Of a DNA stretch of 64,000 bases, positions 14,463 through 64,000 are shown one piece after another. Source of the stretch: Incurvaria masculella. Lineage: Eukaryota; Arthropoda; Insecta; Lepidoptera; Incurvariidae. Both the position numbers and the translations under genes were made by a program. The notes beneath the pieces were generated by a model. It ran no database searches. It saw nothing but the letters and a program-made list of their open reading frames with translations, and was not told the origin of the DNA. Every line of letters starts with the position of its first letter. Positions within the stretch are counted from its first letter, which is position 1. The stretch lies in the NCBI GenBank assembly GCA_946894095.1, contig OX335643.1:6249036-6313035 (forward strand), read 5' to 3'.

Positions 14463-14835
14463 TTCCAGTGACTTTTTTGGCGTAAAGAAATGTAATCGAT
14501 AGTGTTCGAAACCATCGATAATTATTATTAATGATTTTGTTATTATTAATTATTTGATTTTCAAATATTTTAACTTTCATGAGAACTCCAGCTAATATAA
14601 TTCGATCTAAACAGACTTTCAACAAATAGTTCCCTTGCAGAAAGAGTAGAGCCATCTGTTATCCGATATTTAAAATAATTTAAGATTATAGAAATGTTCG
14701 TAATTTATTACTATAATTCTTTTTTCAATTAGATATATTGTGCCACTACCCGTACCGTACGTATTTATTTTCAAAAATACATTGACACACAATATATCTT
14801 AGCTAAAATTATAATCCGATGCGCAGCGCCATCTA

Positions 14836-16889: not shown

Positions 16890-16890
16890 A

Positions 16891-23539: not shown

Positions 23540-23925
23540 AGGGCGGACATGTTGCCCCGCCGCCGCCGCCGCCGCCGCCTCCGCCGCCGTCGTCCCCGCC
23601 GTCGCCGCAGCCGCCACCGCCTCCGCCGCCTCCGACCGCGGAGGGTGCAGCACGGAGTGCGAAGAAACAGCCAAGGTCAGACAGAGAAAGACGAGGTGCA
23701 AGTGCGGATGAGGAGCTGGATGTCATCGAAGTCATCTCTGACTATGGTAACGATAATCACTCTTTCTACGGCGATGCAGAGGACGAAGTTCAAGACCGCG
23801 AGGAAAGGGGTGCGGCGAGTGAGAAGAGTCGCGCGACACCGCCGCCCCCGCCCCCGCCCCCGCCCCCGCCCCCGCCGCCGCCGCCGCCGCCGCTCAGCCG
23901 CGACGGCCGCGGACGCGCTCTGTAG
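23540..23925 (+). other. proline-rich open frame over GCC/CCG repeats, possible exon or pseudogene
   Basis: One frame has no ATG but reads VAPPPPPP..., SSPPSPQ, then TAEGAARSAKKQPRSDRERR, GASADEELDVIEVISDYGND, NHSFYGDAEDEVQDREERG and a second proline run, stopping at TAG 23923-23925. The acidic middle looks protein-like. An upstream stretch (VQLLQFKGRTEVGESSSSVR, from about 23480 after a poly-T/CAG acceptor) is in another frame, so a repeat-length change may have broken it. The overlapping arginine-rich frame is a shadow of the same repeats. Confidence 0.3.
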
Positions 23926-26986: not shown

Positions 26987-27187
26987 CTAAGAAGTAGCCT
27001 GCTCATCCTCTATGGACGTGAGGAACCTGTGCTCCACCATCTCCAGCCTCTCGCTGATGTCATTCAGCTTGGAGCGCAGTTCTGACGTCGAGTTCGCGAT
27101 GAGGTGTCTGATGTCGACCAGCTCCTCATCGATAGACGATAGTGCGGCGCAATCGACGCAGCTGGTAGGAGTGGGCAGCTCTCCGTG
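26987..27187 (-). CDS. terminal exon: CxxC plus coiled-coil tail
   Basis: 201 nt coding, 66 codons and TAG. After HGELPTPTS it has CVDC, then a run of about 45 residues with hydrophobics at heptad spacing (LVDIRHLIANSTSELRSK, LNDISERLEMVEHRFL) and ends DEQATS. A Cys pair beside a coiled coil is common in secreted proteins that form disulfide-linked oligomers, so multimerisation at the C terminus is a reasonable inference. One N-x-S/T site (NST) lies in the helix. CAG acceptor; the 3' UTR runs to the AATAAA at 26802-26807. Confidence 0.82.
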   Translation of the reverse strand, partial: HGELPTPTSCVDCAALSSIDEELVDIRHLIANSTSELRSKLNDISERLEMVEHRFLTSIEDEQATS

Positions 27188-30100
27188 CTGTGAAAGTAAG
27201 AAATCGTTTAGCAGTGTGGGCTTTCCCGCTCATCTCCCCATACAAACGTGGAAAGAAGATCACGCCCATATATCTTATCAGAGATCCAAAGTTTTGCTCA
27301 AAATAGCTTTATTTGATCAAGCTAGATGTCTGATGACTGTTGACATTGTAAAATTGTGCTTGGTTTCTAAGTTGTAATCTTAAAAAGATATTATAGATAA
27401 AAAAAATCTTAAAAAGATTAGTCATCAGACATAGCTTGTTTCATAAAGATTTATAATCAATTTGGTTTTTGTTTGATTTTTACATAAAAGTACAAAAGTA
27501 AATCACGACCTAGGTCTAGGATTTACTTTTAGCTATAAGTCGTTTTGTAATATAAATATTCGTAAATATTACCAAATCAAACACTATGCGCACTGTCTGA
27601 TTTGTGGACATGTTGTATCCTCCTCATCACGGAGCCTGTATTTTTCTTTGAAACAGAGAAGTTCCTAGAGCGCAATAGCACAGTTTTGTACCGTGCCCGC
27701 AAATGAGTTAGTCCCGCCGGAAAGGGCCACCTTAACCTGACAATATAGCTGGTGGATCTCCACTTATTATTAAACACTACAGGGGTGGCATATCTGTAAT
27801 TTTGGAATTTCACAAAAAACAATTCTCGAGGAGCTAATACTAACGAAAAATATGATAATTTTTTTTTTCGGAAGTGTTTTTCTGTTTGTCTGTCCGTCTT
27901 CGACAATGTTTGGCGATGAAAAGGCTAATTCTATTTAGATGCGGTTTTCACTAATATAATCAAATACATCTCGAAGAAGTTTTTGCCATATATCATCACG
28001 ATATGTTGACCTTTTTTGACCATCGAATGATGACGCGTTTCGGGGAGGCGTCGCGGCCGACCCTAATTCTCGCAATCATCACCCTAACGTGAGCGGCGAG
28101 CAGACTGTATAATATCGGACTTTAACGCGAGCGGAGCCGCGGGCATAGCTAGTTAAAAGACTCTTCTAGTGGCACAGTTCTGAGTTCAAATCCTCGTCCC
28201 GTTCATGCATCACTTTCTTTCACTTGCAAGTTGAATAAGTGCATTTCGTCACGAATGAGAGCAGTTCCATTTCTCGGAATCCTTGTAAAACTGTAGTTAC
28301 CTTTCCTTTACTAGGTGGTAGAACCAAGCCCACACTCGAAATGGAAGAAAAGTTGGTCGAAATGGCTATGAAACATTGTTCATGTCTTCCATCCAGTTCA
28401 ATGTAACCATGTACCAAGAAACAGAAGACCTACTGACAATTGTATATTGAAACTCACTTACACATATTACATTAAATTGGACTGTCTAATCTCGCAATGG
28501 TCTATGGACGGTCTGTTGGACATAGCGAGCAGTTATACACATACACTCACGCATTCCATTTATTTAATTATCCTAACACAGTTCCAGTTACTCACAGCCA
28601 ACACACTTTCATATCACACTCTTGCTTATATTTTATATACCATTTCTATATTTTTTTATTTGAATAGCATTACTTTGTAAGTCTTAACTAATCGTATTAT
28701 ACTCATGTAAAAGGCATTGTTAACAGTAGTTCTTATAAGACAAACCTAGTTTCGTTTAAGAATTACAATATAATGTATTAGATTGTTAATATAAAATAAA
28801 TAAATAAAAAAATGCTCATAAAGGGATGTTACTATTATTGCACCTAATTACTTCAAAGATGCGGTGTGTTAGGCTTATATCATAACCGTGGATATAATAT
28901 TAGCAATCCGTATCCGGTTACATACAAAAAAATTAATGGCTTAGAAGCAAATCAAAATACGGTTGGAAAAGAGAAGCTTACATTGGTCTTACGTTGTTTG
29001 GTATATATTTTATATTTTAAACTTTGTCCGAATTTTGTAAAAAAATCTAACCTATCCTGAAATCATTAGGTATCTGAAACTGTACTTCTTGCCTTCGGGT
29101 ATTCGACAGGTTTTCTTTTCACCGTGTATTTTAGTTAATTAACACAATTTTATTGCGAATGTTGGCAAAAGGCTCAAAGACGAAAAGGCTACGTGACAAA
29201 CAACATTACCGGCTGGTAAGAGAGTTGCACCGCTCTGACTGCAGCCAGTTGGTCCCGTCTGCTCCTCAGCTCGCAGGTGTACCAGCCCGCATCCTCCGGC
29301 TTCATGTTAGTAATCTGTAAATATCACCAAAATTATTAATGGCTAAGCAAACTGTTCAATAGTTTTCCTTAAGGGCGTGATATAAGCCGATTGTGATCAG
29401 TTTGATAAGGCCGTAAGTAAAACAACATCTAATTCTAATAAAAATTATAAAGGGGAATGTTTGTAATAATGGATGGATGAATGGATGGATGGATGGATTT
29501 ACAATAATATAGCTTATACATCAGAATAACACATAGGCTACAATTTATAAACATATTGTGCCCATGGGCTTTAGAACTTTCACGGGGCTGCGAAAACGAT
29601 GCCGGTAGCGCTACTTCACACCAGGGGGAGCGGGGCCGGGGGCGGTGGCGGGAGCGGGGCCGGGGGCGGGGCGGGCGGTCCGTCGGGGGCGGGTGCGGGG
29701 AGGGGGGGGGCGGGTACAGCTTGGTATTTCCCGCAACTTTAGGACTACTTGGCAAAATCCTTGAGAACCAATTACTCGATTTAGATGCGGATTGTATCTA
29801 CGTCTAGCCTGATTCTACTCAAAACTTATAGGCTACATAATATAACGCTTCATTACCTGAAGGGTGAGTAGTGAGTGTTACATTCTTATAACTTGCGAAC
29901 CACTAACCCGATTTATGTGCGTATTTTATCAATGTATAGGATCTCTGGGAGCTGTCAGGTTCGAGATGGGTTACTGTTTTCGATGTTGAGCCTGGCTGTG
30001 GGTTGGAGTCCACGCAAAACTTACCTACATTACACGTTACTTACTTACTAGGTAAACAATGTTGCAGTGCAAGTGCAGAAAGGTTCTGGCGACAAATGCT

Positions 30101-33100
30101 TTTTTTTAAATAGCCACCAAATGTTAACGAAGCTCTAAATGGTAATTATTGGATGTTTCTCATTAAATCATGCTATTTCATCTCGAACGATCTTGATTAA
30201 ATATGGTAGATGGATACATTGTTCTGGACCAGTTTGACCCTATTTTGGATCAGCCATGTCGGATACTTTTTATCCATGAAATAATTTAGCCGACGCTAAC
30301 CCGAGCGGAGCCGGGTACCGCAGCTAGTTTTATTATATTTAAAAGGAACTTTAACGAATCTCGATAATGATAAAAGTAAATGTGTGGATTGATAAGTTTA
30401 AAGGTAAAATTGTGATTCTCTGGTGGTTTGTGTTCTCATGCTAGTGAAATATTCATAAAACATCACAAAAAAGTTTGAACTTTCTAGGTTTCAAATATAG
30501 CTAGACCATCAATGCATCTTTCATATTTTGGAAGCCCTAAAATAAGTAGTAGTTATTTTTTTTAATAATAAAATATGGTTTCACTTATGCTATTATGGAG
30601 CTGAATGCAATCAGGAGTTGTTACGCCCTTAAGGATAATGGGATATTATGTGACCACACCACACTCAATGCGACTCAATAGTAACCGTTGATATAGTTTT
30701 GCATCTAGGTATTTTCAATTAGAACATAAGTTTAAGACGACTAAGGTCAATCTTAGTCCAATATATTTTCGAAAATATATGAGATGACATCATGACGTCA
30801 TATCTCCAATTACACAGACATATTTGACCTTCTTAATTATTAATATTATCTTAGTCATCATTAAAAGTTATGTTCTAATTAAGAGAAAGACAATTAATAT
30901 GGTAAACAATAGTTTAGGAAATTATAATGAAATTAAATAAAAACAAACAATAAATCCATCCGAGGCTGCCATTATACCTAATACACTTAAGGCATTACCT
31001 CATTGAATTTGCACGCTTATGCGGCGATTAAATAATCACCCGATGCTTCACTTAAGGCTGTTCCGACCCATATAAAGTTGTTTGCACACATAACGTAAAA
31101 AGTATTGCACTTTAAGCCACGAAATAATAATAAAAGTTTAATATAGTCATATTACTTGCAGCGAAAACAATTTCACAATTTCAGGATTATTGGTTTTGTT
31201 ACAATTTATTTATATATGATTTTTATTTAACAGCGCCATCTAAGGGTGTAAAACTTCTAATCGGCAATTACAACGAAACCATTAAACCTGAAATTGTGAA
31301 TATGTTTTCGCTGCAACTAATATGGCTATATTTAATATTTTTGACGAATTCGTGCCTTAAAGTGCAATACTTTTTGCGTTCTGTGTAAAAAAAACATTGT
31401 ATGGGTCGGAACATCCTTAACAGGTTACCAAGTAAATCTGAAAATGATAAAGCATCAAGCGACAAAGGACGGGTAGCAGGGACTCATACTTTTTTCACTT
31501 ACGTAGCACGGCGGAGGCCGCGGCAGCCCCGGACGTATGCGAGGAAGCGAGGACATGGCTTGGCGCTAGCGTATCGTGTTTTAATTGAAAATATCCATCC
31601 AATGGTATACCATATGTTACTTTTAAGGTGCCCCCGTAAGCATCAGAAAATTTTGCCTCCTATTCAAACGTTTCATCGTTAGTAAACTAATCATTTGAAA
31701 ACCACTGTAGCAATTTACTTGATATTTGGTATCACATATCTGGCAACAAATATCTGTGTCTGCATGTCTTTGTTTTTTCGGTAAATGTATCCTGAGTCAA
31801 ACCACATAGAAAACAAAATTAGTATGAAGATTTTGTTTTTGCTTTCATCTGATTCGGTTTGGATTTTTCAAAAAAAAACAAAAGCGTGCAGTCACAGATA
31901 TTGGTTCCCTGATGTTAGATATTAAATATCAATTTAATTGGAACAGCGGTATCTAAATCATAAGTAAACTACGTTTGTATGGGGAACATAGCTTACGGGC
32001 CGTTGTTAAGTCGTATTGTGGGCCCAGGTAAACTAGATTCCCATTCTCCTTTCCAGACAAACCACTTTCAGCAAATCTCTCTGTAATTAAATTATCTTTA
32101 ACCTACACAGTTGTTATTAGGTTTGTGTTCTATAATTAAGCCCAAGGAAGATTACTCAAGTCGTTTTTAGGGTTCCGTACCCAAAGGGTAAAAACGGAAC
32201 CCTATTACTAAGCCTCCGCTGTCCGTCCGTCCGTCTGTCCGTCCGTCCGTCCGTCCGTCTGTCACAGGGCTGTATCTCATCAACCGTAATAGGTAGGCAG
32301 CTGAAATTTTCACAGAGTGTGTCTTTATTTTGCCGCTATAACAACAAATAGGTAAAATAAAATAATAATAATAATTAAAGGGGGGTCCCATACAAAAAAA
32401 CGTGATTTTTTTGTGTTAAATCTTGTACGATGGTACGGAACCCTTCGTGTGCGAGTCCGACTCGTACTTGGTCGGTTTTTGAACTACGAGCCAATGACTG
32501 CCACGCTTAACACTCACTGTCACTTCCTGTTGACTCGGGAACATAAATTTGGTAAAATATAAACATTGTGTATCTGGTAGGCAAACCTTTGCCTCATTTT
32601 GCTTAAATTTTAAGAGCGGTTGATAAATTGTAGTTCAAATCTTACCTCCAGAATGTAAGTTTCGGGTGAATAGTAGTGGTCGATCTTGATGCGCGGGTTC
32701 CTGATCTGAAGGGAAGCATCACGAGAGATTTCTACACCTCCCTTAGCCTGGTGACAACAAATATATTATTTACTAATCGTAAAAGAAGAAACCTGATCAC
32801 ATGTTATCCTTACATTATATTGGTTGGGGAAAAAGTTTCTTCGCATTTTTTAAGAAAATTCAAAACATTTTTTAATATGGTTTATTTACATTTAACTAAA
32901 GTATGTAGGTACCATTTTGTTCGATAACTTTTTGCCATGTTGTAGGTAGGGACATGATCCCATTGCTATAGAAATATTGGGACTTCTGATCAATATACCG
33001 CGACAAGTGGTTTTGGCAGTCCTTTCGTGATGTTAACCTGACACTGCCTAAAGAATTCTGAAGAGACCTAAACAGGTGGGAATCTGAAGGTGCAAGGTCA

Positions 33101-54100: not shown

Positions 54101-57100
54101 GTTCTTTTGTTTTTTTTGTTTGAACGCGCTAATCTCTGGAACTACCAGTCGGATTTTGAAAATGATTTTCGCATTTAGTACTCCAATTCTTCGGTAAGGC
54201 TATAGGCTATATAACATCACGTTACAACCCTGAGGAGCTGAGCAGAAAGAAAAAAGTCAGAAAGGACGTTAAGCATACACGACGCGTTAATCCCTGGAAC
54301 TAACAGACGGATTTTGAAAATTGTTTTTGGATTTGGTAGCATCATTCTTGTAGAATTAATAAGCTCATGAATGGTAGAGAATGATATATGGTTTTAAGTG
54401 TTCCTTATTGCCATTGTTTTATGTAAAACGATCAAATAAATGATATTTTCATTTTAATTTCAATTAATTCTTCTGGAAGGCAACAGGCTATAGAACATCT
54501 CGCTACGACACTGAGGAGCCGAGCAGAAAGAAAAACAGTCAGAAAGAACGCTAAGCTTAAACAAATGAATAGCGCAGGCGGGTGATTCGATGCCGGTGGT
54601 TCGAGGCGAAAAAACCCGACCTAACCTAACCGAACGTTTAGTTGCGTTCCGTACATGCTTAAAGTCAAGCAACATGTTATTCGGCCAAGTGAACTTAATT
54701 TTACCAGTTAGCGTAGTAAGAAATGCAACTAAACGTCATGTTTAATCACTCACTTGCCTGTTCACCCGGCGAGTTAATTTACAATAGTAACTCCTCCGTG
54801 CATAGCTACGGCAATGAGGTACCATCCCGCGCGGCGCAATCGCAAGGTCATAAACATCAGCATCGAATCACCCACCTGCGCTTTTAATTCGTTTATGCTT
54901 AGCGTCCTTTATGCCTTTTTTTCTTTCTGCTCATTTTCCCAAAAAATTAGGCTACCAAATGCAAAAATATTTTTTTTAAATCCGACTGGTAGTTCCAAAC
55001 AAAGGTTGGGCGTTCAAACAAAAAAAAAGTAAACCCTCCAGCTTTTTATATTATAGATTTCTTAATACAATAAAAAAATATTAGAGAAGTTAAATATTTA
55101 ATTTTGTTATTACAAATATCTTACCAAGCGCACATGTGAACTTGAGTCCTTATCAGTCACTGTGCATGTCAAGTACACGCTGGTCCCTATTTTTGATTTC
55201 TTGAAACCGATTGTGGCTTTGCTGTAAACGCATTCTAAAAAAAATAGAAATATCTCGAACACTGATACATGTATTCATACCAAATGCACATACATTTATT
55301 TCAGACATACATATTTCTACTCAAATTTTTACAAATCGGCTGGCATATTGCGGCGCTGAGCTTTGCTAGGAGAGATGTATTAACCCCACGCGGAGACTAT
55401 AGGTCCCTTGACGTAGCTACCAATGCTAGTTTTTCATAAAAAGCTGCTCAATTACGAGAACTATAAACCTGCAGCCTACGAGTACCGAAATGGTGGAGGT
55501 TGCTACTGTTATTTGCTCACTGAACCCCCAGTAAACGCATTTGCAATCATCCATCCATAGACAAACTACATTGAAAAAAGTAATCAGCGGTTCTAACTAT
55601 AATTTCGATTATTACAACGGTTTTGCAAAGTACAAATAAAGCCAACTAAATAAATTGGTTACTCTAAATAAGTCGTAATAGTTAAGAACGGCCCGTAAGC
55701 TATGCTCCCCATACAAACGTAGTTTACTAATCATTTGGAAAGCGCTATTCCAATTAGATTGATATTTAATATCTATTATCAGATAAGAAATATCTGTGTC
55801 TATACGCTTTTGTTTTTTTAAACAATCCAAACGGAATGAAATTAAAGCAAAAAAAAATTCTTCATACGAATTTTGTTTTCTCTGTATTTGGACCCAGAAT
55901 ACATTCACCGAAAAAACAAAGACATGCAGACACAGATATTTGTAGCCTAATATTAAATACCAAATATGAAGTAAGTTGGAACAGTGGTTTTCAAATTATT
56001 AGTTAACTACGTTTGTATGAGAGGCGAAATTTTCTGTTGCTTACGGGCCGACCTTAACCTAAAAAAATAATATTACTGTATCTTTTAATTGCTTTTTGAG
56101 TGTGTGCCATGACTCTTTTATTTTACTATTTCCCTAACTGTGTTAAAACTGTTTTTAGCTTTAGTATTTATTCAATTCTTACTTAAATCTTAAATTTAGT
56201 GAAATGGTACTGATCATTATATTTATATGTACTGTTAAAATCACGATACCTCTTGAAACTGGACAGTTGCAAACCTAATGCCTAAGCCGTAATGTTTAAT
56301 CAGTTAAGATAACCATTTCGGAATCATCTGATCTGTCACAAGTTTTATTTTTACCCAGCGTTACTTTTCAATAGGTTAAAATTAAAAAAACCGGCCAAGT
56401 GCGAGTCGGACTCGCACACGAAGGGTTCCGTACCATCGTAAAAAAATGTATACAAAAAAATCAGGTTTTTTTGTATGTGGACCCCCTTTAATTTTAATTA
56501 TTTCTAAATCTTACCTATTTGTTGTTATAGCGGCAAAATAAATACATACTCTGTGAAAATTTCAGCTGTCTATCTGTTACGGTTACTGAGATACAGCCCT
56601 GTGACAGACGGACAGACGGACGGACGGACGGACAGCGGAGGCTTAGTAATAGGGTTCCGTTTTCACCCTTTGGGTACGGAACCCTAAAAAACTACTTTGC
56701 TGTTGGATATGTCTACAAGTGATGTTGACAAACTCTTCATTGTCGCATGTACCTAGTATATGCTCAAATAAAATAATCCTTGCACAAACAAACACACCCA
56801 CATGTACACACAAATTCCCTAACACTGCCTCACATTCGCCCTTACAATACATAAAATGGGTCCACTCATAACATTCTACAACATACGATGAACAGTACAG
56901 TGTGCGTTCACCATTATGTTTTTAATGTTTTTTTTTGGGCTATGCCTAATGCGGCCTACTACACAGAGTTTAGTTCTTCTGTAGGCTGCAATGTACAATT
57001 TTATTAACTACATTCTTGTAAAACGTGTTATTGTAACGTATTGTTTTGTCAACTTAATCAATAATGTATATGCGTATGTTTTATTGGAATATAAATTAAA

Positions 57101-60100
57101 ATTGAAATGTTAACTGTTTTTGGTCATTTATAGATACTTACCGTAACACATTAATAGTAAGGAGAATTACTTACGATAAATGACTGAATTTTAAATGAGT
57201 GAGTTATATAGTTAGGGAAACAGTAAAACAAAACAGTTAAGGCACACAATCACAAAAACATTTCTTTCATCATCTATACACCACATTCCTGAAGGAATTA
57301 GGTGCCATGCCCGGACCTTCCATTTATGAGCACGGCTACATTGATCAGGACGTGTATTCTTGGCATTCAGTCATTGCGGATTCAGTAGAGTTAACAGAAG
57401 AAGAATTTACTTTGACATTACTGTTAACTCTCCTGAATCCGCAATGACTGAATGCCAAGAATACACGCCCTGGATGGAAAACACGGACAATTTTTAATTG
57501 CTGCTTCGAACATATTTTCATCCAATGCGATGGTCTCACCCTACCACTTAGTAGGGTAAGGGGACCTACAGTTTTACATGGATTCCGAACGATGGAATAT
57601 ATCGAATTCGTGACGAAATGCACTTATTGAACTCAGAAAGAGAAAGTAAGAGTTGCATGTCGGGGCGGGGAATTGAACCTAGACCTCTAGTACGCTAGGC
57701 CAGTCCCCTCGCCACTAGGCTATGAGCCTCTCGAAAAGATACAGTATTCTTTATTGTTTCAGGTTAAATATTTTCACTCAGAGGAACCAATTTACTTAGT
57801 TGGCTCTATTTTAACGTTGCAGGACGGTTTTTCTAATTGGTATTACAGATAGATTTGTCACTGAATATATTGTTAAATGTATTTTAACTTGCGTTTCCTG
57901 CACAATATAATCAATACCATATATTTGTTAGTGAATAGTTGTTAGGTTAACTTACCAGATGATGGTTTAAATTTACTACTTCCTGCCGAACCGAGTTTGA
58001 TGACGGCGTTGGGGCTGTAGTACCAGGTGTCACCACAAATTTCCACGTACAGGTCCTTGTCGCTGTCTATGCGCAGCACTTTTCCTATTTTCCCCACCGT
58101 CTAAAATTAAAATGGAATTTTAGTAACATCTAAAGATTGATTACACCTATTGGAACCACAAACGACATAAAAATAAGCACGGTTGCATGTTCTGACTCCC
58201 GAAAACCGAATCTAATTTCAGGGTTCCAAGTGGTTTCCTTTTATCGTATCTCGTATTTGCCATCTTTCCAGGCTTAAAGAACGAGTGAGAAGTAAAGTCA
58301 ATAAAACTTTATTTATTTCTTCGCGTTAAGAATAGAGTAAGGATTAGGTGGCTAACACAATGAATTTTCTCATTGTATTGTAATGTTTTTTATTGTTAAT
58401 TCATCATTAATCGACAGTACACTGCACTCGGATTTGTCTCATTTTAACATTGGCCAGTTCAGCAAAATTAAAAACAGCGAAGAAGAACTGGCAAGAAACT
58501 CCGCTGTTTTTTTTTCACGTCCAATTTTTTAACAAAAATATAGGTAAAAAGTTAACAATTCATGCCGCTTGTAACAGTTCATGACAAATATCATTTTTTT
58601 TGCAAAGACTATCCCCGCTAACTTACATGTTGCCAATTGGAGAAGGCCAGTCGCCACAAATAGCACGCACACGTTCACAAGCATCACGCCGGGCACAGCC
58701 ATCACCTCTCTCGACGTTATTTTGGGGAAAAAGATAACCCGAACCAAGCGTCACCGTAAGCAAGGACCTTAAAGCGATGCACTTCTCCAGTGGTAACACA
58801 ACACTGTGAAACACTTGTACGTTTGGTATGAATACTATAAGTTTTGTCATAAACTACTACAGTGAGCTGATCACATAGTTACATATCCCTTTAAATGCTA
58901 CCACCTACAGAAAATTAATAATACATGTAATGGTTTAAGAGCGGCCTTATCAATTAAGTAAGAATAAGACTCCTGTATGAGATTTTGACCAATACCGAGA
59001 AACAAATAATACTTAACAAAAATTCGGGTGTACAGAGCCCTCGTCATTATTGATACGATTGATTATATTTTCGGTACCTGTAAACATTCGTGTTGTGTAA
59101 ATCCATATATTTAACTTGAAGACAAAGAAACACCTCCAGTACAAACAGATGTAAAACTAAATCTTGAAGCCATAAACGAAAACTTTTAAGATGAATAAAG
59201 ACTGCATTCGCATACCGTATTCGCTGGCAGTAGTACCTAGTGTGTTTGTGAAATACAATCACCCGTCTCTTTACCTCATCTTTCCTTGAATGCAGAACTA
59301 GAGTCGGTCAAATCAATCGTGATTCCCCATATAATAGAGGAAACAAAAATCATAGTATGGTGCCATTGAAAACATTGGGGAAATTAAACTATAATTATCT
59401 TGATACTTCAATATAAAAAAAAACGTTCGATTTAATTTTGTAAAAAAATGTATCTAAACCTGTTTTACATTGTTCGGGAGTTATGTTTAATATATTAGGA
59501 GTCATAATCAAAATCTGGGGCGAGATATACTATAGACCACACATTACGTCATTTTCTGCACCAGATTCACTCTTAATGTATATACGAGTATATGTCAATG
59601 ATCACAATAACATTGGTTTGCCAACCCTAACTCAATGCACAGTAATAAGAAATTCAAAAATAATAATACGTAAATTAAATAGTTGAAGTATCTAGATTTC
59701 GTAGGTGTGAAATAAACAATATGCCTGCTGCGATCGCGATGATGTTAATACTCGCATTAATTACTTTACGATGCTCCTTCACTTTACTTATTTCTTAAGA
59801 ATATCGTGACATTAGGCTATACAGCAATTTTCTGGTAGAACTTTCAGTTGGTTTGGACATTTTAATTCGAAACCGATATAGTCATAGCTTAGAACCACCA
59901 CCTTTTAACCCTTTTACATTGACTGTTTTTGACAGCTGGTCTTGTTGCCATCAAGATAAAATTCCCAATATTCACGACTGGCTTGATAGACTCTAGTAGA
60001 CATATCTGCAGTGAGCGTTGCTTCAAAAACCTACATGTGTTTATAAAAAGCCATAAGTTTGAAGAATGTCTTCACCTCCATCCGATACGGTCATAACTTA

Positions 60101-63100
60101 GAACCACCTTTTAATACTTTTGAAACATTTTGATTGACTGTTTTTGACAGCTGGTCTTGTTGCCATCAAGATAAAATTCCCAATATTCACGACTGGCTTG
60201 ACAGACTATAGTAGACATATCTGCAGTGAGCGTTGCTTCAAAAACCTACATGTGTTTTTAAATAGGCATAAATCCGGTTTGAAGAATGTCTTCACCTCCA
60301 CGGTTTTACTATGATTCATGACAAAAATAGAAATATACCTTGCGCATATCTTCGACAAAGCCGACGCGCACTTCATGTATCTCTCTGACTCTGGCCTCGT
60401 CGGAGAGCACCTGCACCCAGTCCCCCTCCTCGAACTCTCCCCCCGCAGCCCGCGTCGTCTCTGTCTCCGGACGGGGTGAACTCGTCTCCTCTGCTGCAAT
60501 AGGGCGTCAATCAAATCACACGGACGAAGAAACATTACGAGAGGCGCTGCGCTGTGGTTCCTTTCGTTATAATATGTATAAATACGTATAAATATACTTA
60601 CTCCTTCTTACACACAACCATTGCCCCACACATACACCTTACCTACACCCATACACACATTACAACCCAACTATCACAGCTTCTTAATTTATACACATAA
60701 CAATGTTCAACGTCCGAGCTCGCAATTCCAGACTGATCAATGGAATTCCATTATTGACCACAATCCTTAGAATAAGAACCATTTTAAAACTGACTCTATA
60801 TAAAGTTGTTGAATTCCTTTATACTAAATAAATAAAAAAAAGTTCTACGTCAAGAAACCCTTTAAAGTCGGACAGAAAAACATTTCGCGATGGCAGTCGT
60901 AAAGTTAAACTCGACATTACCCTTAGAGCGTTGGACGCCTATTTTTATGAGACACACTGTTGCAGAGCGCTTGCATTTCGGTTCCAACGCATTGCATTGC
61001 ATTAGCCAAAAACTACGGCCTGATAGTAGACGGTAACGCCTCTTTTCGCGAAGGAAAAGATAAGCGAAAAATGAGACAGGTAACGGTGTTATCGTCTATA
61101 CCATAAAGTATAATATGAGATTGACAGCAAAAGTGTCGGTGCTAAATTGTCGCTCGGAATTTTTTTGCTGTTCCAATACGCAATCATAACCAATACACAC
61201 ACATATGTAGTCCCAATTCACAATGTCCGCGTAGATTCTGGTCTAAGCGGCATTGATTAAAACTTGCATTCCCATACAATAAACCGGATCGCTCAAGCCC
61301 TAATAATAATGAAAGGTTATATTAATCGCTAGGTTTCCCGTAGCTTAAAATAAAAGTAAAATTAAGCAAAACTCACTTGCTTCCAACACCTTCACGGCAC
61401 CAGTAGCAGCTAACCCTTGCTGGTTCCTCACCTGGCAGCTGTACCAGCCACCATACTCCGTACCGTCGATCTGCTCGAAATCAGTTCGATTGCTAATGTC
61501 ATTACGAAAATCAACCGGGGAGACGCCAAATTGCTTAGGGTCTCTTTCACCATCCACAGTCAAGATCTAATCCGTGCAATCAAAAATCAAAGTTTTTTTT
61601 TTGTGATTTCCGCTACCTCTAAATTTACTTTTTAGATAACAGGAGTTCACTTAAAACCAGCTTCGATGGAACTAATATGTTCTATCGCAACGTTCTCAAA
61701 AATTAATTGAAATTAAATATGTAACTTTTTTATGTATGTTAAATTTATTATATATTTTTATATATTTTGTGTAATCGATTATGTCATTGTTGAATAAATG
61801 TATTTTATTTCTTTCTTTCGAAATGTCTCCCTGACTGACAGTCAAACCTATGTTAAATGTAAAAGCAAGTTGATCTGTCAGTCACGAGACAACTCTCAAT
61901 TGTATAGAGTAGTGGATTTTAATATTATAATAATGGACATTAAGGACCGTTATTGAGGTCATGGAATCTAACAGTTAGTTAATCCACGGATTAAATTCTG
62001 TGGTGAAAGAGATTACTTGATACACATAGGATTTGACTGTAAAACAAATTAATTCCGTTGTCAAATTACTGTTTTTTTTTATGTGACTGGACATGGATGG
62101 CTAATACCACAAGTTCCGTCATGGTATTAGCCCAACACACCACATGGGAACTAGGTGCCATGCCAGGACCTTCCTCATATTTCACGGCTACATTGAACTG
62201 GATGGAAAACACGGACAATTTTCATTGCCGCTTCGACCATCGTTCATCCAATGCGATGGTACCAACCCGGGCGGGATAAACCCTACCACCTAGTAAGTAA
62301 GGAAGGGGACCTACAGCTTAACGTGGAATCCGAACCACGGCCAGCCTCTCTCAACGGTCGAATGGTTACCCATCCAAGACCAGACCGGACCCAGCGTTGC
62401 TTAACTTCGGAGAGCGATCGCCGAAGTGTCGCGAATGTTTTTTTTTTCAGGTTGCTTATTTTGGGGGTTCATTCTTTTTCGACATCTGCCAACATAGTTA
62501 TGCTCAATTATTGTGTTAATACAACACATCATTAGTTTTATTTTATTGCATTTTAGAAAGGCACACGATTTGAAATAAATAAATGATTCTAAATCTTTGA
62601 AAATAAGTAACGTACGTTAAACTTTTACTAGCATAAAACTAATAACTAGCGTGGACACATAGCTATTTTCTTCCATTTAAGAAAGGTTTATCTCAAATAT
62701 GATTCGAGCAAAGATTACGCCCTCTGCTCCACCAAAGTGGTGGAGCTATCCCGATCACGTTGAAGCTTGCTAATGTGAGCTTAAATAAATGAAATACAGG
62801 AATAGTGTAAACATTTGAAAGAAATATTACTACTATGGATAAAATCAGTACGGAGCAATACATATGACACCATAATGATACATCACAAGTCAATAATTAT
62901 CTTTTTATCCCACAGATACGATAAGGGGCAGTCATTCATGATCTCTAAAATCTTTATTAAACTTGATCTATAATATATCATATCAATATAGCAAAGAAAA
63001 TGTATGAAACAAGTGCTATATTATTTATTCATAACTTACCGGCAATATTTCAGTATGACTTGTACCTTCGGTTCGGATACGGATGCTTTTAGGTTCAAAC

Positions 63101-63117
63101 TCTACATCCTCCTTGAA
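26987..63117 (-). CDS. Ig / Mind-bomb-SH3-like tandem repeat protein (multi-exon gene, 5' end outside window)
   Basis: This entry covers the whole spliced gene visible here; exons are listed separately. Twenty-four exons join without a frame break: 3525 nt, 1174 codons plus stop. Each full repeat reads Ig-like domain (Cys near the start, LTC in strand B, then DAGWYTC in strand F) followed by a module with F-x-x-GD-x-V-x-VLSDE...VKE and, in the next exon, LGKIGKV...D-DL-VEICG-TW-Y-P-A-IKLASAG. The second module closely matches, from memory, the repeated SH3-like domain of the E3 ligase Mind bomb (Pfam SH3_15 type), which in Mind bomb binds Notch ligands inside the cell. The combination with Ig domains is unfamiliar to me. 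Function is unknown; a structural or adhesion role is inference. Junction phases are uniform: A starts in phase 1 and ends in phase 0, B is 0-0, C ends in phase 0, D ends in phase 1. The 5' end lies beyond 64000. Confidence 0.85.
27215..27735. mobile_element. MITE-like repeat with GGTGGGCC-type ends
   Basis: About 520 bp from GTGGGCTTTCCCGCTCATC to GGGCCACCTTAA, related over most of its length to 63164-63710 in the opposite orientation. Starts 28 bp upstream of the terminal exon's acceptor, so it sits at the very end of the last intron. Confidence 0.6.
28150..28425 (+). mobile_element. SINE copy, diverged, tRNA-like head
   Basis: Starts with TCTTCTAGTGGCACAGTTCT and GAGTTCAAATCCTCG (box B-like), then CTTTACTAGGTGGTAGAAC and CTTCCATCCAGTTCAATGTA of the shared body. 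The tail is lost. Confidence 0.55.
29210..29314 (-). CDS. R6 exon C1: second half of the last Ig-like domain
   Basis: 105 nt, 35 codons, phase 0-0. Reads ITNMKPEDAGWYTCELRSRR and ends VRAVQLSYQP before a GTAATG donor. CAG acceptor. Unlike other C exons it stops after the Ig domain and has no GD-x-V-x-VLSD part, so the last repeat has no SH3-like module. The donor phase fits the terminal exon. Confidence 0.85.
29443..30329 (-). mobile_element. non-autonomous retroposon-like repeat, copy 3
   Basis: The same repeat in reverse, from the GGATGGATGGATGG end to the complement of TAGCTGCGGTACCCGGCTCC at 30329, about 0.9 kb, with an internal deletion against the copies at 1642 and 3096. In the intron between R6-B and R6-C1. 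A short end fragment also lies at 28110-28155. Confidence 0.6.
31623..32010. mobile_element. MITE-like repeat with CCCGTAAGC ends, block 1
   Basis: Runs from TTAAGGTGCCCCCGTAAGC to GCTTACGGGCCGTTGTTAA, about 390 bp, inverted ends. A related copy with ACGGCCCGTAAGC is at 55680-56058. Confidence 0.6.
32168..32480. mobile_element. GGGTTCCGTACC dispersed repeat, block 1
   Basis: About 310 bp between AGGGTTCCGTACCCAAAGGG and GTGCGAGTCCGACTCGTACT. It holds a (GTCC)n microsatellite at 32221-32260. A widespread lepidopteran repeat; class uncertain, MITE-like. Confidence 0.6.
32646..32747 (-). CDS. R6 exon B: middle of Ig-like domain (in duplicated block 1)
   Basis: 102 nt, identical by eye to R5-B. 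The truncated mariner (32820-33697) lies just upstream in the same intron, in the same position as in the other block. Confidence 0.88.
32820..33697 (-). pseudogene. mariner transposon, 5'-deleted copy
   Basis: Same element in the same intron position as in block 2, cut off at ACTTTTTCA (33697). It keeps the left inverted repeat and codons for about the last 215 residues of the open frame, including the catalytic triad (APSDS in place of APSDF), but has a TAA in place of AAA shortly before the WVPHEL region and has lost the N-terminal DNA-binding part. Non-functional. Confidence 0.92.
34568..34680 (-). CDS. R6 exon A: first half of Ig-like domain (in duplicated block 1)
   Basis: 113 nt, identical by eye to R5-A, including both splice sites. 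A perfect 63-bp hairpin (34835-34897) lies about 150 bp upstream in the intron. Confidence 0.88.
34835..34897. repeat. perfect 28-bp-arm hairpin, block 1
   Basis: Arms of 28 bp (34835-34862 and 34870-34897) are exactly complementary round the loop TTCTTGA. The left arm begins TTTCGTCTAGATCCTCAGAT. Lies in the intron between exons D and A. Confidence 0.92.
35131..35373. mobile_element. MITE with GGGGGTCCATTCA ends, copy in block 1
   Basis: About 243 bp with inverted ends GGGGGTCCATTCA and TGAATGGACCCCC and subterminal AGAGTGAGTTCGA/TCGAACTCACTCT. No coding capacity. In the intron between R5-D and R6-A. Confidence 0.8.
35419..35563 (-). CDS. R5 exon D: SH3-like second half (in duplicated block 1)
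   Basis: 145 nt. Same as R4-D with three conservative changes: it reads YIYQDGEISVDVCNDNWAYN where R4-D reads YIYQDGDISVEVCNNNWAYN. CAG acceptor, GTAAGC donor. Confidence 0.9.
36112..36360 (-). CDS. R5 exon C: Ig second half fused to SH3-like first half (in duplicated block 1)
   Basis: 249 nt. Same layout as R4-C: IDDVKPEDAGWYTCEVSKDG, a linker with DISTTTEPAVTED, FEAGDLVWVLSDKKKVKELE, NDEMEK. The changes against R4-C cluster in the Ig G strand and the linker; the SH3-like start is better kept. Confidence 0.9.
36886..36924. repeat. perfect 18-bp-arm hairpin, block 1 only
   Basis: CAGTAAAACACCTCATGT pairs with its exact complement round a three-base loop. The matching place in block 2 (about 44238) has AGTAAAACAACTCATGTTAC and no second arm, so the hairpin arose or was lost after duplication. 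Confidence 0.88.
37933..38321. mobile_element. MITE-like repeat with CCCGTAAGC ends, block 2
   Basis: Duplicate of 31623-32010 in the second block. Confidence 0.6.
38479..38791. mobile_element. GGGTTCCGTACC dispersed repeat, block 2
   Basis: The same element at the equivalent place of the second duplicated block; practically identical, including the microsatellite. Confidence 0.6.
38957..39058 (-). CDS. R5 exon B: middle of Ig-like domain (in duplicated block 2)
   Basis: 102 nt, 34 codons. Begins AKGGVEISRDASLQIRNPRI and ends PETYILE. CAG acceptor, GTAAGA donor. Identical by eye to R6-B. The mariner at 39131-40374 sits about 70 bp upstream in transcript direction, just before the acceptor, so it is in the intron and does not break the exon. 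Confidence 0.88.
39131..40374 (-). mobile_element. mariner transposon, complete copy
   Basis: About 1244 bp, flanked by TA on both sides (39129-39130 and 40375-40376). The ends are inverted repeats of about 28 bp, the left one beginning TTGGTTGGGGAAAAAGTTTC, the right one ending in the complement of GGTCGGGGAAAAAGTCTTTT, with a few mismatches. It encodes one uninterrupted transposase on the minus strand. By size, termini and the D,D34D motif it is a Tc1/mariner-superfamily mariner, resembling the cecropia group from memory. Confidence 0.92.
39207..40232 (-). CDS. mariner transposase, intact (341 aa)
   Basis: DNA-cutting and joining enzyme of the mariner element; it acts on the terminal inverted repeats in the nucleus. 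The reading frame is complete from MSESNEEIRY to the stop, near the usual 345 residues. The N-terminal half has two helix-turn-helix regions (about residues 5-110) with RRSGRP between them. The linker carries WVPHEL (about 116-121). Catalytic aspartates are at D153 (TGDEKWI), D245 (HHDNARPH) and D280 (YSPDLAPSD), 34 residues between the last two: D,D34D. All three are present and there is no frameshift, so this copy may still be active. That is inference. Confidence 0.93.
   Translation of the reverse strand: MSESNEEIRYILKYYYKKGKNATQAAKKICDVYGPSAVSVRVAQIWFKRFQSGNFDVKDARRSGRPITDKMDAIFEKVEQDRHISSYDVAEELGIDHKTVLAHLKKTGYTKKLDIWVPHELTERNLMNRVLICDSLLRRNETEPFLKKLITGDEKWITYDKNVRKRSRSKAGQASQTVAKPGLTRNKVMLCVWWDWKGIIHYELLPPGRTIDSELYCEQLMRLKQEVERKRPELINRRGVVFHHDNARPHTSLATQQKLREFGWEVLMHPPYSPDLAPSDFHLFRSLQNSLGSVRLTSRKDCQNHFSRYIDQKSQYFYSNGIMSLPTTWQKVIEQNGTYIL
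40618..41003 (-). mobile_element. SINE with 5S-rRNA-like head
   Basis: Read on the minus strand: head at about 41003-40885 with CGAAGTTAAACAACGCTGGG and then CTTGGATACCCC, close to the 5S rRNA segment GAAGTTAAGCAAC...CTTGGATGGGTGACC; body and A-rich tail end at 40618. It is inside duplicated block 2, and the corresponding position of block 1 is deleted. Confidence 0.7.
41882..41994 (-). CDS. R5 exon A: first half of Ig-like domain (in duplicated block 2)
   Basis: 113 nt. Reads NCVSSDATTKITQERAGNVV then KLTCTVVNEPTMYSYVKW. TAG acceptor, GTACGT donor. Identical by eye to R6-A at 34568-34680. Confidence 0.88.
42149..42211. repeat. perfect 28-bp-arm hairpin, block 2
   Basis: Exact duplicate of the hairpin at 34835-34897, so it predates the segmental duplication and has stayed perfectly paired in both copies. 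Confidence 0.92.
42445..42687. mobile_element. MITE with GGGGGTCCATTCA ends, copy in block 2
   Basis: Duplicate of the copy at 35131; one base of the right end differs (TGAATGAACCCCC). Confidence 0.8.
42733..42877 (-). CDS. R4 exon D: SH3-like second half (in duplicated block 2)
   Basis: 145 nt. Reads SMGKVGRVTYIYQDGDISVE then VCNNNWAYNPKALIKIASAG, then DSVPEISS. GKVGRV...DGD...NP-AL is the closest to the Mind bomb consensus of all D exons here. CAG acceptor, GTAAGC donor. Confidence 0.9.
43440..43688 (-). CDS. R4 exon C: Ig second half fused to SH3-like first half (in duplicated block 2)
   Basis: 249 nt, 83 codons. Reads IDDVKPEDAGWYTCEVSKDG, a linker with DISTTTESTVTED, then FEVGDLVWVLSDKKKVKELA and ends NDEMEK before GTATTC. 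It differs from its duplicate at 36112-36360 at about 12 nucleotides, giving 8 amino-acid changes. Confidence 0.9.
44803..44904 (-). CDS. R4 exon B: middle of Ig-like domain
   Basis: 102 nt, 34 codons. Begins KKDGQRISRDSVKEVEDYRI and ends SSKKFRIK. CAG acceptor, GTACTT donor. Very similar to the B exon of the left-hand locus (KDGRRMFRDSVKEIED), so R4 and that locus share recent ancestry. Confidence 0.87.
45744..45853 (-). CDS. R4 exon A: first half of Ig-like domain
   Basis: 110 nt. Reads DCTRSDSTVRITEQRSGNSV then SLTCIVVNRPADSRVLW. CAG acceptor, GTGAGC donor. It is the closest match in the window to the A exon of the left-hand locus at 1444-1553 (both have a CTxSxxxVxIxExRSGN pattern). Confidence 0.87.
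46541..46783. mobile_element. MITE with GGGGGTCCATTCA ends, independent copy
   Basis: Same 243-bp element in reverse orientation outside the duplicated blocks, in the intron between R3-D and R4-A. The same length in three places supports a defined mobile unit. Confidence 0.8.
46890..47034 (-). CDS. R3 exon D: SH3-like second half
   Basis: 145 nt. Reads [20 protein letters not shown], then ICGATWWYKPNTLIKLASAG, then RSAPEITS. TAG acceptor; GTAAAT donor; phase 1 out. More diverged than R1-D and R2-D in the central turn, with the same core residues. Confidence 0.87.
47847..48110 (-). CDS. R3 exon C: Ig second half fused to SH3-like first half
   Basis: 264 nt, the longest C exon. Reads ISEVKYEDEGWYACEVRKDG, then a Thr/Pro/Asp-rich linker of about 30 residues, then FKEGDVVQVLFDEAIVKKRF and ends PDEMRQ. 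CAG acceptor, GTGAGT donor. The linker is longer and more acidic than in other repeats and would be a flexible spacer. Confidence 0.9.
48522..48620 (-). CDS. R3 exon B: middle of Ig-like domain
   Basis: 99 nt, 33 codons, phase 0-0. Begins VNKDGKISEDSQLYVWNPRL and ends FVTTFKLK. CAG acceptor; GTGATT donor. The KDG...DS start is shared with R4-B and the left-hand locus. Confidence 0.85.
49095..49252. repeat. small palindromic repeat with AAACACGTCACTTT core
   Basis: Bounded by TTGCACGAAGAGACG and CCTTTCGTGCACTCGGCCCT. Contains AAACACGTCACTTTTAGTGACGTG, an internal short palindrome. The same family occurs at 60-250, 290-436 and 8100-8240. Confidence 0.6.
49583..49692 (-). CDS. R3 exon A: first half of Ig-like domain
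   Basis: 110 nt. Reads NCVSSDARVSIKQKRVGNDV then LLTCTVDYKPYKSHVFW. The N-terminal Cys, LTC and closing Trp are all present. CAG acceptor, GTAAGT donor. Confidence 0.87.
50220..50364 (-). CDS. R2 exon D: SH3-like second half
   Basis: 145 nt. Reads [20 protein letters not shown], then ICGDTWYYHPNAVIKLASAG, then SIAPKESS. CAG acceptor and GTAAAT donor, phase 1 out. Very close to R1-D. Confidence 0.88.
50965..51210 (-). CDS. R2 exon C: Ig second half fused to SH3-like first half
   Basis: 246 nt, 82 codons. Reads INDVKPDDLNWYNCDLIDDD for the Ig F strand, then a linker, then FEVGDVVQVLSDEARVREIH and ends VYSMEE. CAG acceptor, GTAAAT donor. The GWYTC of other repeats is NWYNC here, keeping Trp, Tyr and Cys. 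Confidence 0.88.
51350..51690. repeat. ATACGTTGTGAA / TTCACAACGTAT direct and inverted repeats
   Basis: TATACGTTGTGAA, CATAACGTATAAT, ACAACGTATAATCGG and GATATGCATGG recur in both orientations over about 340 bp right beside a SINE. No coding sense; possibly the end of an unclassified element. Confidence 0.5.
51711..52088 (-). mobile_element. SINE with 5S-rRNA-like head
   Basis: Best head in the window: on the minus strand CGAAGTTAAGCAACGCTGGG followed by GGTCTTGGATGGGTGACCAT (about 52045-51990), a clear 5S rRNA match. The tail ends in A8 at 51711. Lies in the intron upstream of R2-C. Confidence 0.75.
52845..52896 (-). ncRNA. hammerhead ribozyme motif, left arm
   Basis: Mirror copy of the right-arm motif on the other strand: CTGATGA is the complement of 52879-52885 and GAAAC the complement of about 52855-52859, with the same stem II. 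Follows from the inverted repeat. Confidence 0.58.
52972..53307 (+). pseudogene. Penelope-like polyprotein C-terminal fragment
   Basis: About 110 residues: HWIRFDQVKTIAVEKQYIPR, LVRESIEISRHPNFNRDDSM, RLSSSWSPVLAQYG, then TEPTHSYNLRSRR-like end that runs into the right inverted arm. The Arg-Glu-Ser-Ile-Glu-Ile stretch is what follows the GIY-YIG nuclease in insect Penelope-like elements. Reverse transcriptase and nuclease core are missing. Confidence 0.7.
53340..53392 (+). ncRNA. hammerhead ribozyme motif, right arm
   Basis: CTGATGA at 53349-53355, then a stem II of GTCC (53357-53360) pairing with GGAC (53371-53374) round a ten-base loop, then GAAAC at 53375-53379. Order and spacing are those of the hammerhead core. 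Stem I and stem III pairings were not worked out fully, so activity is uncertain. Confidence 0.6.
53488..53589 (-). CDS. R2 exon B: middle of Ig-like domain
   Basis: 102 nt, 34 codons, phase 0-0. Begins IKGDQVFFSENSVSRPEFDV and ends SSEIFTLK. CAG acceptor, GTAATG donor. It lies immediately left of a Penelope-like remnant in transcript terms downstream; the exon itself is undamaged. Confidence 0.82.
54065..55065. repeat. complex repeat with opposite-facing ends
   Basis: Starts ATAAAGCTGAAGAGTTTGTT with TTTGAACGCGCTAATCTCTG and ends with CGTTCAAACAAAAAAAAAGT and CCTCCAGCTTTTTATATTAT in inverse orientation. Internal pieces (54290, 54475) repeat the GAACT...GGATTTTGAAAAT and GAGCCGAGCAGAAAGAAA motifs. 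Common type of lepidopteran repeat; class not determined. In the intron between R2-A and R2-B. Confidence 0.55.
55125..55234 (-). CDS. R2 exon A: first half of Ig-like domain
   Basis: 110 nt. With the G from the preceding D exon it reads ECVYSKATIGFKKSKIGTSV then YLTCTVTDKDSSSHVRL. The first Cys and the LTC strand-B Cys are both present. TTTTAG acceptor, GTAAGA donor. It is the only A exon here ending in Leu rather than Trp, so the usual Ig core Trp is missing. Confidence 0.85.
55680..56058. mobile_element. MITE-like repeat with CCCGTAAGC ends, independent copy
   Basis: From GTTAAGAACGGCCCGTAAGC to GCTTACGGGCCGACCTTAA, about 380 bp, opposite orientation to the block copies. In the intron between R1-D and R2-A. 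Confidence 0.6.
56385..56692. mobile_element. GGGTTCCGTACC dispersed repeat, independent inverted copy
   Basis: Reverse orientation, from AAACCGGCCAAGTGCGAGTC to TGGGTACGGAACCCTAAAAA. Not part of the duplication, so it shows that the element is dispersed. A short end fragment is also at 21240-21290. Confidence 0.6.
57278..57727 (-). mobile_element. SINE with tRNA-like head, interrupted by a foldback insertion
   Basis: The head (57727-57640, minus strand) has CTCATAGCCTAGTGGCGAGG and TAGGTTCAATTCC, matching the copy at 8948. The body is interrupted at CATTGATC/CTGGATGG by a 117-bp foldback (57351-57467). Only part of the tail is present. Confidence 0.68.
57351..57467. repeat. foldback element, 47-bp arms
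   Basis: The arm CGTGTATTCTTGGCATTCAG and onward (57351-57397) is repeated in inverse orientation at 57421-57467 with a single mismatch, round a 23-base loop. Inserted in a SINE. It could be a minimal MITE or an unstable inverted duplication. Confidence 0.85.
57956..58100 (-). CDS. R1 exon D: second half of Mind-bomb-SH3-like module
   Basis: 145 nt. Reads TVGKIGKVLRIDSDKDLYVE, then ICGDTWYYSPNAVIKLGSAG and a short Ser-rich end. The GKIGKV...D-DL...TW-Y-P-A pattern is the diagnostic second half of Mind bomb repeats. TAG acceptor, GTAAGT donor, ends in phase 1. Every D exon in the window is exactly 145 nt, which indicates strong length constraint on this half-domain. Confidence 0.88.
58627..58702 (-). 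CDS. candidate signal-peptide first exon nested in R1 intron
   Basis: An ATG in a good context (GTGATGG) opens 25 codons beginning MAVPG with a hydrophobic core VNVCVLFVATGLL and ending LQLAT, then a perfect GTAAGT donor in phase 1. An in-frame TGA lies just upstream, so the ATG is a genuine start. It sits between R1-C2 and R1-D, so it cannot be part of the long transcript read here. Phase 1 fits A exons, but joining to the nearest one (R2-A) creates a TAA; R3-A, R4-A, R5-A and R6-A would give Tyr-Cys instead. It may start a shorter isoform from an internal promoter, or be left over from an ancestral duplicated first exon. Confidence 0.5.
58710..59870. other. intron of R1, nothing recognised
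   Basis: Between the candidate signal-peptide exon and the 215-bp tandem duplication. If the signal exon has its own promoter, it should lie at 58750-59300 on the minus strand. No initiator or TATA box is obvious. Confidence 0.35.
59872..60300. repeat. tandem duplication of about 215 bp next to exon R1-C2
   Basis: A unit beginning near CCGATATAGTCATAGCTTAG and containing TTTTTGACAGCTGGTCTTGT and GAGCGTTGCTTCAAAAACC is present twice in a row (59872-60085, 60086-60300). The second copy ends 38 bp from the donor of exon R1-C2 and has small indels. Confidence 0.85.
60339..60493 (-). CDS. R1 exon C2: linker and first half of Mind-bomb-SH3-like module
   Basis: 155 nt, phase 1 in, phase 0 out. After a Ser/Thr/Pro/Glu-rich linker (TEETSSPRPETETTRAAGG) it reads FEEGDWVQVLSDEARVREIH and ends VEDMRK before a GTATAT donor. 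The acceptor is a tandem CAGCAG, so two products differing by one codon are possible. Pairs with exon D at 57956-58100. Confidence 0.85.
61377..61566 (-). CDS. R1 exon C1: second half of Ig-like domain
   Basis: 190 nt, starting ILTVDGERD and carrying the Ig strand-F motif EYGGWYSCQVRNQQGLAATG, ending VKVLEA. The Tyr-x-Cys pairs with the strand-B Cys expected in the missing A exon. The TAG acceptor and GTGAGT donor are clear. The exon ends in phase 1, unlike R2-R5, where the Ig half and the SH3-like half share one exon. R1 therefore keeps an intron between the two domains. Confidence 0.85.
62070..62434 (-). mobile_element. SINE with 5S-rRNA-like head, slightly truncated
   Basis: Same family: CGAAGTTAAGCAACGCTGGG and CTTGGATGGGTAACC on the minus strand, body, and A-tail at 62070-62079. 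The 5' end is cut at TGTCGCG (62434). Lies in the intron between R1-B and R1-C1. Confidence 0.72.
63040..63117 (-). CDS. R1 exon B: middle of Ig-like domain
   Basis: First exon of the gene visible in the window, 78 nt, 26 codons, beginning FKEDVEFEPKSIRIR and ending TEILP. It is bounded by a CAG acceptor and a GTAAGT donor. It matches the position and phase (0-0) of other B exons, although it is 7-8 codons shorter and lacks the KDG...SRDS start. The A exon of this repeat must lie to the right, outside the window, because 63118-64000 holds only repeats. Confidence 0.75.
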
Positions 63118-63163
63118 CTGTTGACAAATAAATTGTATTAATTTAACATCTCACCGTTTAGTC

Positions 63164-63710
63164 TTAAGGTGGGCCCTCCTGGCGAGACTAACTCATTCGC
63201 GGGCAAGGTACAAAACCGTGATATTGCGCTTTACCTTCACTGTTTCAAAAAGACAGGCTCCGTGATGAGGAAGATGCAACATGTCCACAAAGCAGACAAT
63301 GTGCATAGTGTATGATTTGGTAAGATTCACGATAATTTTATTTACAAAACGACTTATAGCTAAAAGTAAACCACGACTGCTGTAGTCAAAAATCTAACAA
63401 AAACCGAATGCTAAAACATGCTATGTCTGATGACTAATCTTTTTAAGATATTCTTACTTTATCGTTGAGTAATCCACCTCCAAATTTATTCTATAAAACG
63501 CGCGAAAAATTCGAACTTTCGGACCTTATAATTTCGAAACAAAACACAATTTTATTATGTCAACGGTCATCAGACATCGAGTTCCTTTTTCATCTAAGGT
63601 TCGATCAAATAAAGCAATTTTGAGCAAAATTTGGGATATCTGATAAGAAATATTGGCATGATCTTCTTTCCGCGTTTGTATGGGGAGTCGAGCGAGATGG
63701 CCCACCTTAA
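63164..63710. mobile_element. MITE-like repeat with TTAAGGTGGGCC ends
   Basis: Inverted ends TTAAGGTGGGCC (63164-63175) and GGCCCACCTTAA (to 63710), about 547 bp. Same family as 27215-27735. Explains the two overlapping minus-strand frames near 63600. Confidence 0.65.
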
Positions 63711-64000
63711 CCACTTATGAAACCCTATACTATAAATCGTATGGGAGGACGAAGCTGTACAATCGACTATAATCCTACTATTTGCTCCTAAGGAGGCAAT
63801 TCATTGCTGGGCAACTGTTGCCGAACATACTCGTAGATGGAGAAATATAGAGCAACCCCAATACTTTTTCGGCAATTATCCCTGCGATAGGGAGCGATAT
63901 TGCTACACATCGCTCCATACTTTTCGTGTTGGCGGTGTTTATCGAATTGCCACGTAAATGCGCACTTGGTCGCCACGGGCGGGCAATATATTTCTCCATT

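Follow-up and report, generated by a model that had tools for sequence, protein, structure and literature searches.

Can a lepidopteran gene combine Ig domains with the SH3 repeat of Mind bomb and, if so, in which compartment would its product work? The question is raised by a 64,000-nucleotide stretch of the genome of Incurvaria masculella (contig OX335643.1, positions 6,249,036 to 6,313,035), called here the window, in which a first-pass annotation had read a protein of alternating Ig-like and Mind bomb-type repeats with a coiled-coil end, probably secreted. In the sections available of PMC11843878 and PMC11701565, MIB1 is a ubiquitin ligase that carries two tandem SH3_15 modules together with MIB_HERC2, ZZ, ankyrin and RING domains, and its REP region binds the C-box of Notch ligands, as stated in the parts available of PMC11887331 and PMC11843878. 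All other SH3_15 proteins shown in the literature consulted, which was available in part, are ubiquitin ligases too. A single SH3_15 module between Ig domains, with regularly placed cysteines, would show a cytosolic tail-binding module moved to a new setting.

The exon model could be reproduced exactly: 24 minus-strand exons, running from 63117 down to 26987, join into 3525 nt, or 1174 codons plus a stop, in a single open frame. All 24 have an AG acceptor, all except the stop exon have a GT donor, and the phases fit throughout. There are four kinds of exon: A encodes the first third of an Ig domain and B its middle, C runs from the last third of the Ig domain through a linker rich in Thr, Ser and Pro into the first SH3 half, and D supplies the second SH3 half. 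They follow one another as X0-B0-C0-D0, then four times as A-B-C-D, then as A-B-C without SH3, and the terminal exon closes the gene. The alternation of repeats is borne out by this order, and it can be refined to five SH3 units and six Ig positions.

The first unit departs from the others. Exon X0 (63040-63117, phase 0 to 0) has AG/GT borders and an open frame, is without a Pfam match, and is possibly the first part of Ig 0; exon B0 (61377-61566, phase 0 to 1), whose acceptor has a poor pyrimidine tract, forms the end of Ig 0 with a WYSC motif. SH3 unit 0 is split between exon C0 (60339-60493, phase 1 to 0), which holds its first half and no Ig sequence, and D0 (57956-58100, phase 0 to 1), which holds its second. 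Ig 1 and the first half of SH3 unit 1 occupy 50965-55234 (A1 55234-55125, B1 53589-53488, C1 51210-50965), followed by D1 at 50220-50364. Ig 2 and its SH3 half lie at 47847-49692 (A2 49692-49583, B2 48620-48522, C2 48110-47847), with D2 at 46890-47034; Ig 3 and its half at 43440-45853 (A3 45853-45744, B3 44904-44803, C3 43688-43440), with D3 at 42733-42877; and Ig 4 and its half at 36112-41994 (A4 41994-41882, B4 39058-38957, C4 36360-36112), with D4 at 35419-35563. Ig 5, without SH3, spans 29210-34680 (A5 34680-34568, B5 32747-32646, C5 29314-29210), and exon E (26987-27187) ends the frame with a CxxC motif, a short coiled-coil-like tail and the stop. The acceptor of this last exon, before 27187 and fitting phase 0, was chosen on reading the sequence, and other acceptors were rejected for frame mismatch. 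Exon E has no NCBIfam match and a best PDB match at E 0.83, and the first 296 residues likewise have no NCBIfam match.

The intron phases indicate how such an array could grow. With its class 1-1 symmetry, the A-B-C-D cassette can be multiplied and the frame still stays intact; modules of this class are common in extracellular proteins. A phase-0 intron separates the two SH3 halves. Unit 0 has an extra phase-1 intron between Ig and SH3, as does a second gene in the window by hand reading, and this makes C0-D0 itself a class 1-1 module. The SH3 module may therefore have entered as a class 1-1 piece, the extra intron being lost later in the multiplied units. In the four units C1-C4 a single exon holds both the end of the Ig domain and the start of the SH3 domain; the fusion is thus independent of splicing, and together with the joined 24-exon frame this upholds the earlier claim that Ig and SH3_15 are fused in one frame.

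A Pfam search with the joined protein, the 1174-residue translation, matched both domains significantly, and found SH3_15 (the Mind bomb SH3 repeat domain, PF18346) in five stretches at E 1.5e-69. Scanned singly, all six units, including that of the second gene, passed the gathering cut-off of 24 bits over the full profile (1-67 of 67): unit 3 scored highest at 75.6 bits, followed by unit 4 (70.3), unit 1 (56.0), unit 0 (54.7) and the second gene's unit (44.5), and unit 2 stood barely above the cut-off at 24.9. Joining C to D matters here, since the frame with exon C1 alone reached 14.3 bits and the joined exons gave a full-length match in all six units. As an independent probe we used human MIB1 REP2 only, without the window's own repeats, with 20 block-shuffled windows as control. 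The probe scored the six D-type exons, D0-D4 and that of the second gene, at 27.8-49.7 bits, against a top score of 10.2 in the shuffled windows. Among the C-type exons only C3 (17.9) and C4 (17.7) exceeded the shuffled range; C0, C1 and the second gene's C0 fell within it (4.2-9.3), and C2 was not listed. The first half of the module is thus recognised only in part without the second.

Among solved structures, unit 4 matched human MIB1 4tse at E 2.1e-30 and 4xi6 at E 1.3e-26, and the third match had E 0.73; by sequence, no solved structure other than MIB1 resembles the module convincingly. Identity is 39-52% to human MIB1 REP2 and 28-39% to REP1. The Mind bomb-type module recognised in the first-pass annotation is a true SH3_15 on these three lines of evidence, the same module as in the MIB1 REP region of 4tse and 4xi6, and nearer to REP2 than to REP1. 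Descent of the SH3 modules from a Mind-bomb-REP2-like module appears probable.

The Ig domains are equally recognisable, with some exceptions at the start of the chain. On the joined protein, Ig_3 matched in five stretches at E 2.1e-43, and I-set, V-set and other Ig models matched too. The core cysteine pair of the B- and F-strands is present in Ig 1-5 and the tryptophan in Ig 2-5, its position in Ig 1 being taken by leucine. Of the four Ig positions (among six) that were scanned singly, those of units 2 and 5 passed; Ig 1 stayed under every Pfam Ig cut-off (Ig_3 24.8 against 30). Ig 0 (X0+B0) is incomplete, and lacks the B-strand cysteine, the core tryptophan and a Pfam match. A missing exon for Ig 0 had zero candidates under strict settings, and nine candidates under loose settings were rejected, eight of them being variants of one repeat stretch at 62.1 kb. 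The nearest solved Ig relatives, among the best 60 of 311 matches, are Dscam, CADM4, neurotrimin and Dpr4; for Ig 3 the best is Dscam 3dmk (E 1.6e-10), with Dpr4 6eg0 and hemolin 1bih also listed.

How does this compare with known systems? According to the available text of PMC11701565, the ECOD authors find SH3_15 in many eukaryotic proteomes, with MIB1, KEG and ftr97, all E3 ligases, as examples. Plant KEG (seven) and zebrafish ftr97 (six) have many SH3_15 modules per chain, as here, but in the same text they are E3 ligases with RING and are described without Ig. Unlike the tandem pair of MIB1, the modules here are single and alternate with Ig domains, and MIB_HERC2, ZZ, ankyrin and RING are absent from the 21 Pfam families listed (E up to 0.1) for a protein whose 5' end is incomplete. 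Dscam, Dpr and hemolin are insect extracellular Ig strings like this one; they differ in that here SH3_15 is present, Fn3 is not listed and a membrane-like stretch is absent. We know of no SH3_15 in Dscam, Dpr or hemolin. In the open-licence literature searched for SH3_15 or Mind bomb with Ig or with extracellular use, no description of the architecture was found, in agreement with the earlier claim of novelty. The architecture is a new combination of known domains, and an unnamed entry with the same architecture may well exist in automatic annotations of insect genomes.

Searches of a protein database returned no match, with 7995 candidates scored for the whole protein, 145 for the C exons and 96 for residues 700-800. 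Even Ig proteins were missing, so we take the database to be poor in eukaryotic genes and the null result to be silent on orthologues. The sequence collections searched are bacterial, archaeal, viral and metagenomic: the D-exon scan gave 28 pattern matches in genome contigs and 68 in viral contigs, and the C-exon scan of viral contigs gave 600, with zero confirmed in each case.

Part of the locus has been duplicated. The stretch 30984-37299 is a second copy of 37295-44648, with 99.7% identity over 2714 bases (30984-33697 against 37295-40008) and 94.8% over 3676. This near-identity, the pairs A4/A5 and B4/B5 with zero differences and the incomplete first Ig would all fit a gene model that is partly an artefact, in which unspliced pieces were joined, a block was doubled by the assembly, or the gene is decaying. 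We consider this very improbable. Divergence within the 94.8% part is 0-1% in most bins near its start but rises to 4-7% in 250-base bins near the far end, and the copies also differ by a piece of transposon. Amino-acid changes affect 8 of 83 codons in C3/C4 and 3 of 48 in D3/D4, units 0-2 and the second gene show ample divergence, and there are zero stops in 1174 codons. Positive selection found no support: C3/C4 and D3/D4 together have a dN (0.037) below dS (0.074), and the dN/dS of 1.13 for A3 against the second gene's A exon (three other A pairs lie at 0.19-0.34, two are not computable) came with direct counts that gave Fisher p = 1.0, and p = 0.31 with part of the B exon.

The second gene, of which four exons were found at 6664-559 on the minus strand with exon profiles that also recovered those of the first gene, places the same repeats beyond the first gene and continues past the left end of the window. 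Its C0-type exon (6537-6664; SH3 first half, phase-1 acceptor, with start and phase read by hand) joins the D exon (5237-5381) into the sixth SH3_15 unit. Its A exon (1444-1553, Ig first third) and B exon (559-681, Ig middle) together reach 20.0 bits for Ig_3, under the cut-off of 30, and with their flanks are 77-82% identical to the A3 and B3 regions. The SH3 is nearest to units 0 (58%) and 1 (56%). With Ig exons like unit 3 and an SH3 like units 0 and 1, the gene has a mosaic make-up, a hint that units were exchanged or shuffled. Judging by the duplicated units and the paralogue next to them, the gene family is still in the process of change. A weak 15-residue signal-peptide candidate for the second gene (18295-18249) and one weak candidate for a 5' Ig exon were not adopted. 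Between the two genes, overlapping frames at 14815-17622 on the plus strand have reverse transcriptase, RNase H and integrase domains and form a retroelement of the Ty3/gypsy-like class.

In which compartment would the protein work? It has 23 cysteines, of which 20 lie in five repeats of the same four: the SH3 cysteine, a linker cysteine and the B- and F-strand cysteines of the Ig domain. The remaining three are one in the incomplete Ig 0 and two in the CxxC ahead of the C-terminal helix-like tail. The SH3 and linker cysteines are 28 residues apart in all five units, and in the second gene by hand reading. Human REP2, from a cytosolic protein, has the SH3 cysteine as well, so that this residue alone is no sign of export; the position of the linker cysteine lies past the end of the solved human REP2 chain. 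Taken together, the cysteines suggest work outside cells. The proposed secretion is further favoured by the Thr/Ser/Pro-rich linkers, the symmetrical cassettes, the extracellular Ig relatives and the absence of any membrane-like stretch in the 1174 residues (top 19-residue mean 0.72). Against it, no signal-peptide exon was found upstream of X0 (63100-64000), in a window that may stop short of the 5' end, and there are only two N-glycosylation sequons in 1174 residues. On the sequence, an extracellular reading is plausible.

The alternative compartment would be inside cells, where a titin- or obscurin-type scaffold, an Ig and SH3 rod, would bind cytoskeletal or signalling partners and the Mind bomb module would remain in its usual place. 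The sequons and the signal-peptide search count for it, and sarcomeric proteins also carry I-set Ig domains. So does the description of SH3_15 in cytosolic E3 ligases in the available text of PMC11701565. The regular four-cysteine pattern and the CxxC speak against such a scaffold, as do the absence of Fn3 and kinase from the 21 Pfam families listed (E up to 0.1; 5' end incomplete) and of any titin- or obscurin-type protein from the best 60 of 311 PDB matches. We regard it as unlikely.

The explanation that we prefer is a real, constrained gene with an adjoining paralogue, built of a repeated four-exon Ig-SH3_15 cassette and ending in a CxxC and a coiled-coil-like tail, whose product would be exported, either secreted or pericellular. 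A disulfide between the SH3 cysteine and the linker cysteine that follows it by 28 residues would fix each SH3 domain against the next Ig. Chains may be joined via the tail and CxxC into a multivalent rod, with Ig and SH3 faces that bind one or more ligands. We rate this explanation as a whole at about even chances, counting against it the few sequons, the signal-peptide exon that was looked for in vain, the incomplete first Ig, the weak coil and the absence of relatives from the collections searched. At the annotated coiled-coil end a CxxC is indeed seen; the coil in the tail is a weak candidate, since a crude heptad count puts hydrophobic residues at 8 of the 13 a/d positions in its best register, against 7 and 6 in other registers.

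The binding faces bring in a further alternative, in which the protein is secreted and the SH3_15 modules are rigid, disulfide-stapled spacers that have lost ligand binding, recognition, if any, being left to the Ig domains. Of the six units, only 3 and 4 retain the HGxW loop of MIB. Variation within the module is greatest in this loop, with a mean identity of 32% against 59% on the preceding side and 57% on the following side, computed from five units because unit 3 is almost a copy of unit 4. The loss of the loop elsewhere, the near-cut-off score of unit 2, the single modules in place of MIB's tandem pair and the fixed cysteine spacing would all suit a spacer. The second half of the module is nevertheless conserved, and dN/dS among D exons, computable for 10 of 15 pairs, several of them with saturated dS, is 0.12-0.42, which is what selection for an intact frame would produce; the pattern fits fold as well as binding. 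Spacers appear unlikely to us. In the preferred explanation of a ligand-binding rod, specificity would be set mainly by the variable SH3 loop directly before the D exon, and the six divergent REP2-like modules form a natural set for asking what the fold binds.

We speculate further, and with considerable doubt, that a class 1-1 exon pair encoding a REP2 module was captured, combined with Ig and multiplied into an extracellular oligomeric family whose SH3 faces bind peptides or tails, unit duplication and exchange between paralogues serving to diversify the binding loops. If this were true, a cytosolic reader of ligand tails would have been turned into an extracellular repertoire.

The introns and flanks of the gene also contain other elements. 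A mariner-like frame of 350 residues with Transposase_1 and a Mos1-type HTH_48 (39207-40259, minus strand) lies inside the A4-B4 intron, and a shorter frame of 235 residues (32896-33603, minus strand) lies in the duplicated copy of that region. Past the stop exon, a plus-strand frame (23542-23925; 127 residues) is rich in proline, has an acidic tail and is without a Pfam match; it may be of low complexity or belong to another gene as an exon. In the window, ARAGORN gave no match and neither did Rfam at gathering scores, the latter also for a dispersed repeat at 40618-41014, 51702-52097 and 62072-62467, with related stretches near 8943-9213 and 11564-11865, part of which resembles 5S rRNA. Directly downstream of exon C0, two tandem copies of about 0.2 kb (59873-60080 and 60082-60300) share 88% identity.
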